Source: Patescibacteria group bacterium (GTDB lineage: Bacteria; Patescibacteriota; Patescibacteriia; Patescibacteriales; UBA12465). Taken from it: a stretch of DNA of 56,957 nucleotides. Position 1 is the first letter of the stretch. The number at the start of each line of letters is the position of its first letter. Under the pieces are notes generated by a model. That model saw only the letters and a list, made by a program, of their open reading frames with translations, was not told the DNA's origin and did not search any database. Both the position numbers and the translations under genes were made by a program. Of the stretch, positions 38,621 to 43,039 are shown in pieces. The stretch spans positions 1 through 56,957 of the forward strand of contig JAKLGM010000003.1 in the NCBI GenBank assembly GCA_022710685.1. The letters are read 5' to 3'.

Positions 38621-39310
38621 ATGAATATTTATGAAGCCTTAGACACCATTTTCGCTTTTATTCCAGAAACTACCAGGCGGGAATTCAAGAACCAGGGATT
38701 ATACAGTCCGATAATATCTGGCCGGGCCAGGTGCGCCGGCGACATCTATCTCTATCTCAACGCTAAGCAAGCCATTTGGCAAAAAACCGATTACGGCTTC
38801 TTGGCTCGAGCGCTCAAACCCCATCTTCGGTCCGGATCAGTTCTGGAAATTGGTTGCGGCGACGGCAATCTCCTGAAGCAACTAAGCCGCCGCCGCTTCC
38901 GACCGCTCTACGGCCTAGATCATAGCCCGACTATGATCCGTCTGGCCAAGAAAGAGCTGAAAACCTGCCCCCAAAGTTACCTGATTACAGAACGGGCAGA
39001 AGATTATAATCTGAAAAAATTGTCAGGCATTGATAATATAATAATTAACAATTTTTGGGGTCTACTACCCAAGCGCGAATCTATCCGCCTGCTTCTAGAA
39101 CTCAAGAAATGCCTGCACCATGACGGACGCCTAGTCATCGGCCCCATCGACCCAAAACTGCCACCCCGGCTGAAAGAAGCGGCGGACTATCTAGAAAAGC
39201 ATCTCAATTTCAAGTATAGCTATCCGCTCTTTACCAGTTTCCACTCATTAGGCTACCAGGAAAAGAAGCTAGAAATCGCCGGGCGAACCTATTACCTACT
39301 CTCGCCCTAG
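38621..39310 (+). CDS. SAM-dependent methyltransferase
   Basis: A 229-residue class I methyltransferase. The SAM-binding motif is VLEIGCGDGN at 74-83, with the acidic motif II region LYGLDHSP about 15 residues on. The N-terminal 60 residues (FAFIPETTRREFKNQGLYSP) precede the fold. The substrate cannot be told. It is the first plus-strand gene of the signalling island, directly upstream of the peptide/kinase/prenyltransferase cassette, though an extended -10 promoter lies between them. Confidence 0.85.
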   Translation: MNIYEALDTIFAFIPETTRREFKNQGLYSPIISGRARCAGDIYLYLNAKQAIWQKTDYGFLARALKPHLRSGSVLEIGCGDGNLLKQLSRRRFRPLYGLDHSPTMIRLAKKELKTCPQSYLITERAEDYNLKKLSGIDNIIINNFWGLLPKRESIRLLLELKKCLHHDGRLVIGPIDPKLPPRLKEAADYLEKHLNFKYSYPLFTSFHSLGYQEKKLEIAGRTYYLLSP

Positions 39311-39314
39311 AGTG

Positions 39315-39323
39315 TGCTATAAT
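39315..39323 (+). promoter_or_regulatory. Extended -10 promoter of the ComX/P/Q-like cassette
   Basis: TGCTATAAT is an extended -10 box starting 5 nt after the methyltransferase stop. Transcription would start near 39330, leaving a leader of about 50 nt before the peptide ATG. Confidence 0.65.
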
Positions 39324-39354
39324 GGAAGAGTTATAACTCAAGGTCGGCTCTTCC
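39324..39354 (+). promoter_or_regulatory. Inverted repeat at the cassette start site
   Basis: GGAAGAG (39324-39330) and CTCTTCC (39348-39354) are perfect 7-bp inverted arms, 17 nt apart, overlapping the predicted start of transcription. It could be a regulator binding site or a leader hairpin. Confidence 0.45.
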
Positions 39355-39378
39355 TTATTCAAATAATAAGATAAACAC

Positions 39379-39480
39379 ATGAGCCAATTGATTACGCTAA
39401 TATTAAGTTCGAAAAAATACCGCCAGCCCGAAGCTTGGAATAATATCCAATTCCTCTATGGTATTCCCTGGCGCCAATAA
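39379..39480 (+). CDS. ComX-like pheromone precursor peptide (33 aa)
   Basis: This is a small ORF bounded upstream by an in-frame stop (39367-39369) and ending TAA two bases before the kinase ATG. The peptide has a hydrophobic N-terminal part (LITLILSS), a basic middle, PEAWNN, and the C-terminal end GIPWRQ with Trp31 three residues from the end. ComX pheromones have a prenylated Trp near the C-terminus, often third from last. Strain RO-E-2 makes GIFWEQ, which shares G, I, W and Q at the same places. ComX precursors are usually 50-70 residues, so this one is short. Function is inferred from sequence end and neighbours. Confidence 0.65.
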   Translation: MSQLITLILSSKKYRQPEAWNNIQFLYGIPWRQ

Positions 39481-39482
39481 AT

Positions 39483-40883
39483 ATGAACTCGGCCGGAGAC
39501 GACGGCATTGCCAGTCGACGCGAATCTATCCTGAAAAAATTAAGCTTAGGATCACTGCTATTAGCCTTGAGCGCTAGCCTAATATTGTGGTGCGACCAAC
39601 TTAAATATCAGGAATCATATCACGGCCTGCCAGTGACGGTGGCCATCGGTCTCAGCCTTATTTTTTTCCTAGTTTATGTCCTCTCCCGTCGCCACCTTTC
39701 AATTTTAGCCTCAATCATCTTTATTATCAGCTACCTAGCCCTAAACACCGCCTTCCTGGCGGCCTGGGGAGCTGAACTGCCGCTCGGTATTATATTCTAC
39801 GCCCTGATTATTATCAGTAGCGGCATCCTGCTAGACACTATCGGGGCTACGAGCAGCGCCCTATTATCAGCCGCTTTAATAATCGGATTGACCCTAGCCC
39901 AGAACCACGGACTAACCCGGCCGGACTTGAGCTGGCGGACAGAAGCTATCTCAATCCTAGACCAAATTCCGGCAATAATAATCTTGGGTATCATTCTTTT
40001 GGTGAGCCATATCTATAATCGCGAAGTCAAAAAGTCATTAGCCCGCGCCCGGCGCTCCGAGGCTGAACTTAAAGCTGAGCGCGATTTGCTGGAAGTAAAA
40101 GTAGAAACGCGAACGCAGGAGCTGAAGCAAGCCCAAATTGAAAAAATGTCCCAACTCTATCGCTTAGCCGAATTCGGCCGGCTGGCTTCCGGCGTCTTCC
40201 ATGATTTAATGAATCCTTTAACTGCTTTGACTCTCAACCTGGACCAAGCCCAAAAACAAAGCCAAAATGTCAACAGCAAGCTCCAAACCGCGATCCAAAC
40301 CAGCCGCAAGATGGCTAACTTTATCAGCGCTCTCAAGAAACAATTACGGCGCCAAAGCGATCAAAGGATATTTTCGTTAAACGAAGAGATAATAAGCGTC
40401 TGCCAGATACTTAATCATAAGACAATAAAATATAATTTACGCTTGAAATTTTCGCCTGCAGCTGGAATCAACCTTTACGGCGATCCGATTAAATTCAGCC
40501 AAGTAGCTATTAACCTGATAGCTAACGCCGTTGATGCCTATGCCGCCAAACCGCACCTCAAAATACGAACCATTAATCTTAAACTATATAAATCCGAACG
40601 GCATGTCTGCTTCTCGGTCCGGGACCAGGCCGGCGGTATTGCTCCAGATATCTTATCCCAAATTTTTCAACCATTTTTTACCACTAAAGACGGCCCTGAA
40701 TCCGGTTCGGGTATCGGACTATCATCGACCAAAAGTATTGTGGAAAAAGATTTCAATGGGATAATCAAAGTTAAAAATGATTTTGGCCAAGGCGTAAAAT
40801 TCATCGTCAAATTGCCCCTAGCACTATGCCGCCAACCGTCGGACAGTTCATCGCTTCAACAAAACAAAAACCTGATTATTTAG
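39483..40883 (+). CDS. Six-TM sensor histidine kinase, ComP-like
   Basis: This 466-residue protein has six TM helices (about 20-37, 50-68, 71-95, 98-118, 122-140, 160-178) with almost no extracellular domain. A coiled coil (180-225) follows, then the phosphoacceptor His240 in GVFHDLMNPLTAL. The catalytic domain has N348 (NLIANAVDAY), the G1 box DQAGG (381-385) and the G2 box GSGIGL (408-413). Its ATG is 2 nt after the peptide stop, suggesting coupled translation. No response regulator is encoded in the window. The multi-TM sensor without a large loop suits a lipidated or small hydrophobic ligand. Confidence 0.85.
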   Translation: MNSAGDDGIASRRESILKKLSLGSLLLALSASLILWCDQLKYQESYHGLPVTVAIGLSLIFFLVYVLSRRHLSILASIIFIISYLALNTAFLAAWGAELPLGIIFYALIIISSGILLDTIGATSSALLSAALIIGLTLAQNHGLTRPDLSWRTEAISILDQIPAIIILGIILLVSHIYNREVKKSLARARRSEAELKAERDLLEVKVETRTQELKQAQIEKMSQLYRLAEFGRLASGVFHDLMNPLTALTLNLDQAQKQSQNVNSKLQTAIQTSRKMANFISALKKQLRRQSDQRIFSLNEEIISVCQILNHKTIKYNLRLKFSPAAGINLYGDPIKFSQVAINLIANAVDAYAAKPHLKIRTINLKLYKSERHVCFSVRDQAGGIAPDILSQIFQPFFTTKDGPESGSGIGLSSTKSIVEKDFNGIIKVKNDFGQGVKFIVKLPLALCRQPSDSSSLQQNKNLII

Positions 40884-42076
40884 AGAACAATCTCCCCTAC
40901 CAAAATCCCATCCAGACATTCCAAATATTAAATCAAATTCAAACAAAAGCGCCAGAATTAATCACTCCTCGACTGTTAGCTCGGATTACCAAATTCCTCC
41001 TCCAAATAGAAATTAATCCGGGCGGACCATACACTTCTGACCCGGCCACTAACCGAGCAATCGACACCTTCCTTTCCTCCCAAAACATCAAGCTAGAGGG
41101 GCTGAAAAACTATCTAAAGAAACTATTTCCGCTTAAACCAACTTCCCGGGGACGACTCTACGACCACTTAGCCCGCCAGGCTGAAACTAGCGCCCGCTAT
41201 TTTCCTCAACCGACCAGAACTTTAGTCAAAAATAAAATCCGAGAAATGATAGACGGCGACCACGATCAGCAGATTCTACTCCTGCCCTATTTCTTCAAGC
41301 TAGCCCTCGGAGCCAAGGGACAAAAAATATCATCCCAAACCATTCAAGATCTTGGTCTGGCTAATCTCTTCCTCTGGTTGGCCTACACCAACTATGATGA
41401 CATTATTGACAACGACAGTGATATCAAAACCCTACCGCTCGCCAACTGGTTTCTCAAAGAGTTTGCCCGTATCTATGGCCAGCAAAAACAATCTCCCAAT
41501 TTCAAGCGCCTCTACCTTCAAATCAGCGCCCAAACTGACTATGCCCAAATTTGGGAATTGGAAAAAGGGCGCTTCCAACCTGGAGAAAAAAATATTTTTG
41601 CCAGCAGCGCCAGCTACCAAAAACCCAGCGCCCTCTATCGCCGCTCCTTAGCTCATTCTCTAGGGCCGCTACTGCTATTGGATCAAATAAAATATCCGCC
41701 CGCTACGCCCGATGCCAAGGCCATCTTATCTTTCTTCAAATATTATCTGGCCAGCCGCCAGCTCTGGGATGATATTAACGATTTTGACTCTGATACTAAG
41801 AGAGGCATAATTACGGCGGCCAATATCAGGGTCTTAAGGAATGTTTCGGATCCCCAAAAATATCAAAATTATTTTCTCAGTTCTGAGCTTCCCCGTTTAG
41901 CCCGAAGAGCTGATCGCTACCAAGCCCTCGCCCGCTCCCAGCTCCAAGGAGCGACTATTATCAAATACCCTATTTATTTAGAAAAATTATTAACTCCCCT
42001 TAAACAGCGGGCCCTAGACCTAGAAACAGAGGCCGGAGAAATCAATGAATTTCTAAAAGCCTACGAAAACGGCTAA
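40826..42076 (+). CDS. ComQ-like isoprenoid-synthase-fold protein (putative peptide prenyltransferase)
   Basis: A 416-residue protein. The C-terminal 280 residues show the trans-isoprenoid synthase pattern. The first Asp-rich motif is DDIIDND (191-197), a YQKPSALYRRSLAHSLG segment follows about 70 residues on, and the second Asp-rich motif DDINDFD is at 315-321. ComQ proteins share this fold and use it to prenylate ComX on Trp. The extra N-terminal 130 residues contain INPGGPYTSDPATNRAID, a faint echo of terpene-cyclase/prenyltransferase alpha-helical repeats. The only ATG overlaps the kinase end by 58 nt. A general polyprenyl synthase is the main alternative. Confidence 0.7.
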   Translation: MPPTVGQFIASTKQKPDYLENNLPYQNPIQTFQILNQIQTKAPELITPRLLARITKFLLQIEINPGGPYTSDPATNRAIDTFLSSQNIKLEGLKNYLKKLFPLKPTSRGRLYDHLARQAETSARYFPQPTRTLVKNKIREMIDGDHDQQILLLPYFFKLALGAKGQKISSQTIQDLGLANLFLWLAYTNYDDIIDNDSDIKTLPLANWFLKEFARIYGQQKQSPNFKRLYLQISAQTDYAQIWELEKGRFQPGEKNIFASSASYQKPSALYRRSLAHSLGPLLLLDQIKYPPATPDAKAILSFFKYYLASRQLWDDINDFDSDTKRGIITAANIRVLRNVSDPQKYQNYFLSSELPRLARRADRYQALARSQLQGATIIKYPIYLEKLLTPLKQRALDLETEAGEINEFLKAYENG

Positions 42077-42172: not shown

Positions 42173-43039
42173 ATGAAGAAAATCAGCTTTTTATTGATTG
42201 TCAGTTTTCTGGCGATCAACCCAATCGGAGCTTTTGCTCAAAAAGTGGACTCCACTAAAGTTTTAGACTCCTTAAAACTGCTTAACAACAAAAACGCTGA
42301 GCTCTATCTGCGTTTAGCTGATATCAGTTTTAAGGCCGGAGATTATAATAGCGTGATAAATTACGCTGACTCCGCCTTGAACCGGAACGCCAAATTACCC
42401 TTTGCCTATCAGCTGAAAGGTGAAGCCCTATTCCAGAAAAAAGAATACGCTAAAACAATCGAAGTAATGTCTGCCGGCGTCCAATTGCAAAACAGCAACT
42501 TCTCAATGCATTATTACCGCGGCCTCAGCTATCACCTGATTGATAGCCTGAAGTACGCCAGCCTGATTGCTCAGGACATGACTTGGGCTGTCACCATCAA
42601 CCCGCTCGATTCAAACAGCTATTACTACAAAGGGATGGCGAACTTCGTGCTTAGTGAAAAAGAAGGAGCCCCGAAGCTGATGGAATGCATCAATGATCTG
42701 ACGCAATTCATAAAGCTGCAACCGGACAATTTCGTCGCTCATTACATCCGCGGCCAAGCCAATTTCTTTTTAGGCAGCAGCGGCCAGGATGGCGATGGCG
42801 GCGAAGATAATGCCGGGAAATATTTTGTGGCCACGGCGGCTGATATGGATGAGTGCTTGAGGCTTGATCCCGATAACCCGGAGTGTTTGTTTTACCGTTG
42901 CATGAGCTACCTAATAATCGGTAACTTTGCCGGGGTGGTAAAAGATGCTACGGTTCTGGGAAAGATTGACGCTAAAGGCAAAACCGAAGCGCCGCGCAAA
43001 GGTTTTATTTTCAGAAGGAAAGACAAAACCAAAAAATAG
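42173..43039 (+). CDS. Secreted TPR-repeat protein
   Basis: This 288-residue protein has a classical signal peptide (cleavage probably after FAFAQ-like GAFAQ, about residue 23). At least five tetratricopeptide-type helical repeats follow (for example YLRLADISFKAGDYNSVINYADSAL and AYQLKGEALFQKKEYAKTIEV), with a Gly/Asp-rich insert (GQDGDGGEDNAG) and a basic end. The signal peptide ending and the KVDSTKVLDSL start look like Bacteroidetes proteins more than its neighbours do, which may indicate transfer. It should act outside the cytoplasm as a protein-binding scaffold. Confidence 0.8.
   Translation: MKKISFLLIVSFLAINPIGAFAQKVDSTKVLDSLKLLNNKNAELYLRLADISFKAGDYNSVINYADSALNRNAKLPFAYQLKGEALFQKKEYAKTIEVMSAGVQLQNSNFSMHYYRGLSYHLIDSLKYASLIAQDMTWAVTINPLDSNSYYYKGMANFVLSEKEGAPKLMECINDLTQFIKLQPDNFVAHYIRGQANFFLGSSGQDGDGGEDNAGKYFVATAADMDECLRLDPDNPECLFYRCMSYLIIGNFAGVVKDATVLGKIDAKGKTEAPRKGFIFRRKDKTKK

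Follow-up and report, generated by a model that had tools for sequence, protein, structure and literature searches.

What kind of system is encoded by three adjacent genes of a Patescibacteria genome that specify a short peptide with a tryptophan near its end, a membrane sensor histidine kinase and a protein with the aspartate-rich motifs of isoprenoid synthases? The genes lie on the forward strand of contig JAKLGM010000003.1 (assembly GCA_022710685.1, lineage UBA12465), of which positions 1 to 56,957 were analysed; this whole stretch of 56,957 nucleotides is called the window. Peptide X (39379..39480; 33 residues, MSQLITLILSSKKYRQPEAWNNIQFLYGIPWRQ) ends in GIPWRQ, with the tryptophan as Trp31. 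The kinase gene (39483..40883; 466 residues) starts after a gap of 2 nt and overlaps by 58 nt the gene for protein Q (40826..42076; 416 residues), a predicted Trp prenyltransferase of the class I isoprenoid-synthase fold with the motifs DDIIDND at residues 191-197 and DDINDFD at 315-321. A first-pass annotation had described these features and an extended -10 promoter element, all of which are present in the sequence, and had proposed a pheromone cassette resembling ComQXP of Bacillus. We think it fairly probable that the genes form a two-component system by which Patescibacteria respond to a peptide pheromone, in analogy to ComQXPA and PalXQP. Prenylated-peptide signalling is the best reading because the short open reading frame (ORF) and its C-terminal Trp are kept, and because Q does not group with housekeeping synthases. 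Below, G000 is the window genome, G001 and G002 are two genomes of the same genus, and L numbers denote individual loci.

Conservation of peptide X

A Trp-tailed short ORF precedes the kinase in 67 of the 68 loci that have both the kinase and Q, and 56 of the 68 show Pro-Trp; the remaining locus, L114, is cut by a contig end. These counts, made by script, include two loci in which the Trp-tailed ORF overlaps the estimated kinase start, 11 in which the residue before Trp is not Pro, and a few (e.g. L115, L131) for which the ORF was chosen by eye. The short ORF to which the first-pass annotation had drawn attention is thus conserved in related genomes. Dinucleotide shuffles of the 68 loci gave 29.4 Trp-tailed and 1.7 Pro-Trp ORFs (maxima 39 and 6), and the reverse strand of the same loci gave 17 and 3. 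Upstream of other long ORFs in these loci, Pro-Trp short ORFs were found in 4 of 377 cases (about 1%), one of them belonging to a frameshifted kinase of the system itself. On the basis of these three controls, a chance origin of X was rejected.

In the family-level loci examined first, the short ORF ends in (P)G(T/I/K)PW(R) in 15 of 16 cases and in SLPWGS in the other. Phylum-wide, X ranges from 22 to 44 residues, mostly 33-40, and follows the pattern MxKLIxxxLTDKxAR...xPWxx, of which the N-terminal LTDKxAR-type part is conserved at the protein level. Between 0 and 7 residues follow the Trp, two being the commonest number (27 loci); the Trp is the last residue in 1 of 67.

The orthologues of X in G001 and G002 are MSHLIESILKDKSRRSKEYLEKIFFLAGIPWRQ and MSRLIESILKHKSRRSSRYLEKIFMENGIPWRQ. 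GIPWRQ is unchanged in them and its codon changes are synonymous only, while the middle of the peptide diverges; among PGTPWRS ends, too, codon variation is almost only synonymous. This codon pattern indicates that X is under purifying selection. Both genomes have the methyltransferase, promoter, leader, X and kinase in synteny, located at contig ends. The idea that G002 is without the system is unsupported, since its contig breaks inside the kinase.

Fold and motifs of protein Q

The AlphaFold model of Q is all-alpha and confident (pLDDT 91.3, pTM 0.82). Its best Foldseek matches in the PDB are uniformly prenyl diphosphate synthases and their relatives (probability 1.00, E about 1e-3 to 1e-2, TM scores by target mostly 0.45-0.68), and a viral structure library returned weak, non-specific matches only, with a viral trans-prenyltransferase as the best. 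Residues W184, D191, D195, E244, Q312, D315, D316, D319 and D323 are invariant in the Q alignment. The first and second Asp-rich motifs (FARM and SARM) are invariant or nearly so, with the SARM intact in 80 of 83 Q proteins.

Fold and both motifs are shared with housekeeping isoprenyl diphosphate synthases, from which Q differs by being co-encoded with X and a kinase. Window Q has no significant Pfam match, including PF00348 (polyprenyl_synt), and no NCBIfam match; a single weak PF00348 match (E 0.018) was obtained among 18 relatives. The GGKRxR sequence of the isopentenyl diphosphate site occurs in 0 of 83 Q proteins. On these two grounds we rejected a housekeeping polyprenyl synthase, a grouping that the first-pass annotation had named as fatal to its proposal.

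About half of the homologues (46) are long forms of 557-731 residues, and among the distant Q proteins the majority have a fused class II terpene cyclase domain. The DxDD motif of class II cyclases is present in the N-terminal domain of 42 of the 46, mostly as YPDDLDDT. In the one long form that was modelled (pLDDT 93.9), one half matches drimenol synthase AsDMS (1e-10), squalene-hopene cyclase and the meroterpenoid cyclase MstE, with which it has the alpha-barrel fold and DxDD in common, and the other half matches prenyl diphosphate synthases. These proteins differ from the known cyclases in that the class II domain is fused to a domain resembling class I prenyltransferases and is encoded alongside genes for the peptide, kinase and regulator. 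In window Q the cyclase domain is absent or degraded: ahead of the class I core, some 145 residues align to part of it without DxDD, so that residues 1 to about 145 look like a class II cyclase remnant that has lost its motif.

These features would also suit an enzyme that makes a free terpenoid (in the long forms a cyclised sesqui- or diterpene), which the kinase senses while X acts as a co-signal or as a chaperone of Q. Both intact Asp-rich motifs, the DxDD of the long forms and the kinship of their N-terminal domain to terpene cyclases favour such a product, as does a locus of genome G044 (L020), where Q stands without kinase or X and with only a methyltransferase alongside. A free terpenoid leaves unexplained why a near-terminal Trp is kept in 67 of 68 peptides under purifying selection, and why in L087 (G405), which has no adjacent kinase, a typical peptide ending in VETPWFD directly precedes Q. 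Window-type Q, moreover, has neither DxDD nor GGKRxR. We regard this alternative as unlikely.

The kinase, its regulator and the distribution of the system

The window kinase matches HATPase_c (1.5e-19) and, weakly, HisKA in Pfam, and its hydropathy is consistent with about six transmembrane helices. An alignment of 16 kinases shows H240, N348, D381, G410 and G412 to be invariant. In most loci an OmpR-type regulator (Response_reg plus Trans_reg_C) is encoded directly upstream of X, so that the order regulator, X, six-transmembrane kinase, Q is shared by dozens of lineages. The order X-P-Q (P being the kinase) given in the first-pass annotation holds for the window; phylum-wide there is usually an adjacent upstream regulator as well, which in the window genus lies elsewhere.

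No regulator adjoins the locus in the window. Just one full-length protein of the window genome belongs to that regulator family; it is encoded away from the locus on contig C11 (G000:C11:5514-6188; 3.9e-93), near a VIT1-like gene. Such a gene is found near the intact locus in other genera of the same taxonomic family, and we infer from the position of the C11 regulator that X, kinase and Q became separated from the regulator in the window genus. The distances for Q, for the kinase and for the regulator are correlated with one another (r 0.56-0.74; 0 of 200 permutations), a correlation to which shared phylogeny contributes.

Direct repeats of the form TTTAAC-N5-TTTAAC, about 11 bp apart, were seen near the -35 of both the regulator and X in many loci (e.g. 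L184, 5440-5500). OmpR/PhoB-type regulators bind direct repeats of this kind, and the arrangement suggests autoregulation.

With Q as query, homologues were found in 19 of 60 related whole genomes. With a Q profile, homologues turned up in 22 of the 39 genomes from the same family and, at the scale of the phylum, in about 5% of the genomes sampled (20 of 380 and 21 of 380). A scan of GTDB species genomes, which relied on two peptide patterns and is not exhaustive, yielded 51 loci in Falkow-, Colwell-, Davies-, Shapiro-, Levy-, Magasanik-, Moranii-, Doudna-, Nomura-, Uhr-, Dojka-, Berkel- and Saccharibacteria and others, and no named match outside Patescibacteria.

Comparison with known systems

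ComQ and PalQ are class I isoprenoid-synthase-fold enzymes that prenylate a Trp of a peptide encoded beside a kinase (PMC10853753). The Patescibacteria loci resemble ComQXPA in combining a short Trp-tailed precursor, an enzyme of isoprenoid-synthase fold, a multi-transmembrane kinase and a regulator, encoded on one strand by overlapping genes. The gene order is Q-X-P-A in ComQXPA, whereas it is R-X-P-Q (R being the regulator) in Patescibacteria and X-P-Q in the window. ComQ matches PF00348 (4.8e-17 and 7.2e-15 for two comparators) and has a degenerate SARM; the Patescibacteria Q has an intact SARM and, in the window copy, no such match. A further difference from ComQXPA is the class II cyclase domain found in many Q proteins. 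The ComP comparator contains HisKA_3 (PF07730) in place of the weak HisKA and HATPase_c of the window kinase. The regulator of ComQXPA is adjacent and of LuxR/NarL type (PF00196), whereas here it is a Response_reg and Trans_reg_C protein, unlinked in the window genome. Finally, Bacillus ComX matches the ComX family PF05952, and neither window X nor two consensus-like peptides do.

Because all four components (precursor, enzyme, kinase and regulator) come from other families and Q retains its second Asp motif, the system is not ComQXPA by descent. The resemblance of Q to ComQ in profile comparison (hhalign E 0.003-0.011, probability 4-10%) is too weak to claim descent. The first-pass annotation had seen a signalling system built from the same parts as ComQXP; its signalling by a prenylated peptide is retained here as our interpretation, and the notion of the same parts is not. 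A true ComQXPA acquired from Firmicutes would account for the shared logic and the Trp-tailed precursor. With enzyme, kinase and regulator in different Pfam families, no ComX match, and a census that found no ComQXPA outside Firmicutes (PMC4008528), we consider such an acquisition extremely improbable.

The PalX/PalQ/PalP cluster of Paenibacillus alvei likewise unites the precursor of a ribosomally synthesised and post-translationally modified peptide, an isoprenoid-fold Trp prenyltransferase and a histidine kinase (PMC10853753). PalX has a nitrile hydratase leader peptide (NHLP) and ends with its Trp, whereas X, at 22-44 residues, has no NHLP leader (the peptides that were scanned gave no Pfam match) and usually extends 1-7 residues past the Trp. 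Q and PalQ both have FARM and SARM, as well as a conserved Gln three residues before the SARM. This Gln is also found in canonical isoprenyl diphosphate synthases.

A separate cluster was noticed on the Priestia megaterium plasmid NZ_CP140271 (L157, 1358-4399), where a Trp-tailed ORF of 57 residues, a polyprenyl-synthase-family protein and a kinase are encoded in the order X-Q-P beside lantibiotic genes; it appears to be a ComX/PalX-like cluster.

Signalling in the same organisms, including synthases encoded beside kinases, has been predicted in a quorum-sensing survey of the Candidate Phyla Radiation (Bernard et al. 2020, PMC7567580). That survey covers other signal types (e.g. alpha-hydroxyketones (AHK), AI-2, photopyrones, LuxI), and ComX and ComQ are not in its text. 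We found no published description of the present system in the literature covered, outside which most subscription journals and preprints lie. The logic of a lipidated peptide is known from ComQXPA and PalXQP; the Patescibacteria system looks undescribed.

Proposed mechanism and source of the prenyl donor

By analogy with these systems, we judge that Q most likely isoprenylates X on its Trp and that the kinase most likely senses the product. In the mechanism that we propose, in which transfer, export, sensing, outputs and donor source are all predictions, X would be made on the ribosome as a precursor whose N-terminal part is recognised by Q, and Q would move an isoprenyl group from a prenyl diphosphate onto the conserved C-terminal Trp. 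Modified X, probably trimmed, would exit the cell and be sensed by the membrane kinase, which would then phosphorylate the OmpR-type regulator (in the window genome, the protein encoded at C11:5514-6188). Since roughly half of the homologues have a class II terpene cyclase domain fused to Q, cyclisation of the prenyl group is probable in those cases, before or after transfer.

Several observations weigh against this mechanism. A synthase of free terpenoids would also fit the intact SARM and the fused cyclase domain, and homology of Q to ComQ or PalQ is not demonstrable below the fold level (profile comparison with ComQ). Two loci, L087 and L020, have Q without a kinase, the latter without X as well. 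No transporter or protease is linked to the locus. In the window genome, at 89% completeness, neither a PF00348 synthase nor UppS, HMG-CoA reductase or IspH was found; these are the only isoprenoid genes searched, and most Q-carrying family members are likewise without them.

Since the searched genes were not found in the window genome, the prenyl donor may well be scavenged from a host or neighbour. Several phylum-level carriers of long Q do have a synthase and UppS; some carriers encode a genuine synthase separately from Q, and a true polyprenyl synthase (PF00348 3.6e-57) lies inside a Berkelbacteria operon between regulator and X (L089/L149). A tentative extension of the proposed mechanism, possible though one on which we would not rely, is that the signal is a peptide whose Trp bears a cyclised drimane- or labdane-like terpene, made by one fused cyclase-prenyltransferase from host-derived lipid where synthesis seems absent, and that it reports both host contact and density.

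The product might instead be a prenylated peptide with antimicrobial or host-directed action. The adjacent kinase and regulator would then control its production, as happens in lantibiotic clusters, and it would not serve as a self-signal. Modified peptides that are small and secreted can act as antimicrobials, Patescibacteria are believed to live on hosts, and the ComX-like Priestia cluster adjoins lantibiotic genes. Beside the Patescibacteria loci, no immunity gene or dedicated transporter is conserved, and a single sensor and regulator are the only consistent company, which makes this function quite improbable in our view.

Promoter, leader and neighbouring genes

The extended -10 element TGCTATAAT (39315..39323, forward strand), which was also recovered by pattern search, is directly followed by a 5' leader hairpin (39324..39354, GGAAGAG/CTCTTCC) that holds a conserved AAGGTCG at 39340-39346. 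At the equivalent position G001 and G002 have TATA(T/C)T, followed by the same stem and AAGGTCG element. Roughly half of the loci, across many lineages, have a leader hairpin before X with AAGGTCG(A) immediately ahead of the 3' arm; examples of the GTCG element with its inverted-repeat flanks are the window hairpin, L183 (about 974-1025) and L189. Support for folding is modest (mean z -1.1), and the hairpin has no Rfam match.

This promoter-leader combination also precedes a type IV pilin gene in G000 (contig C22) and in G001, and other relatives have it ahead of genes for secreted proteins. These single matches are suggestive, and a regulon search with TATAAT-N-AGGTCG showed no enrichment over the reversed-pattern control. 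The leader is possibly a new RNA or regulatory element that ties the peptide system to pili and surface proteins.

Another possibility, with which the conserved leader would agree, is that X is not a secreted signal and acts as a regulatory leader or arrest peptide, through which the kinase and Q genes would be controlled at the level of translation or transcription. The short ORF lies directly before the kinase, has Pro-Trp near its stop codon, and in several family members is followed by a terminator-like hairpin between X and kinase. In the window there is no terminator in the 2-nt gap. The LTDKxAR-type pattern is conserved as protein, the 0-7 residues past the Trp are unlike a fixed stall site, and an isoprenoid-fold enzyme accompanies X everywhere X was found. 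We therefore hold this role for X to be very improbable.

Directly upstream of the promoter, an S-adenosylmethionine (SAM) methyltransferase is encoded at 38621..39310 on the forward strand (Methyltransf_25, 3.9e-10). It is present in only 4 of 145 relatives (window genome, G001, G002 and G044), always adjoining X or Q, and the loci bearing it span two taxonomic families (the L020/L113 copy lies at 1635-2351). It is a possible partner outside the general system and may tailor the product, in the manner of the carboxyl methylation that follows prenylation, or may be a chance neighbour. Directly 3' of Q, a secreted tetratricopeptide repeat (TPR) protein is encoded in the window (42173-43039) and in locus L036 (2386-3210) of the same-genus Falkowbacteria genome; among the other loci listed, none showed it after Q.

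Implications

If the proposed reading is true, these mostly uncultured, ultra-small and host-dependent bacteria have a phylum-wide, self-contained communication system that uses a lipid-modified peptide signal as in Bacillus, made and sensed by different protein families. The long forms of Q point to a new enzyme class, a predicted fusion of class II cyclase and Trp prenyltransferase. The system also raises the question of how cells without isoprenoid synthesis get the lipid, and it offers a testable route to the signals by which Patescibacteria find each other or a host.

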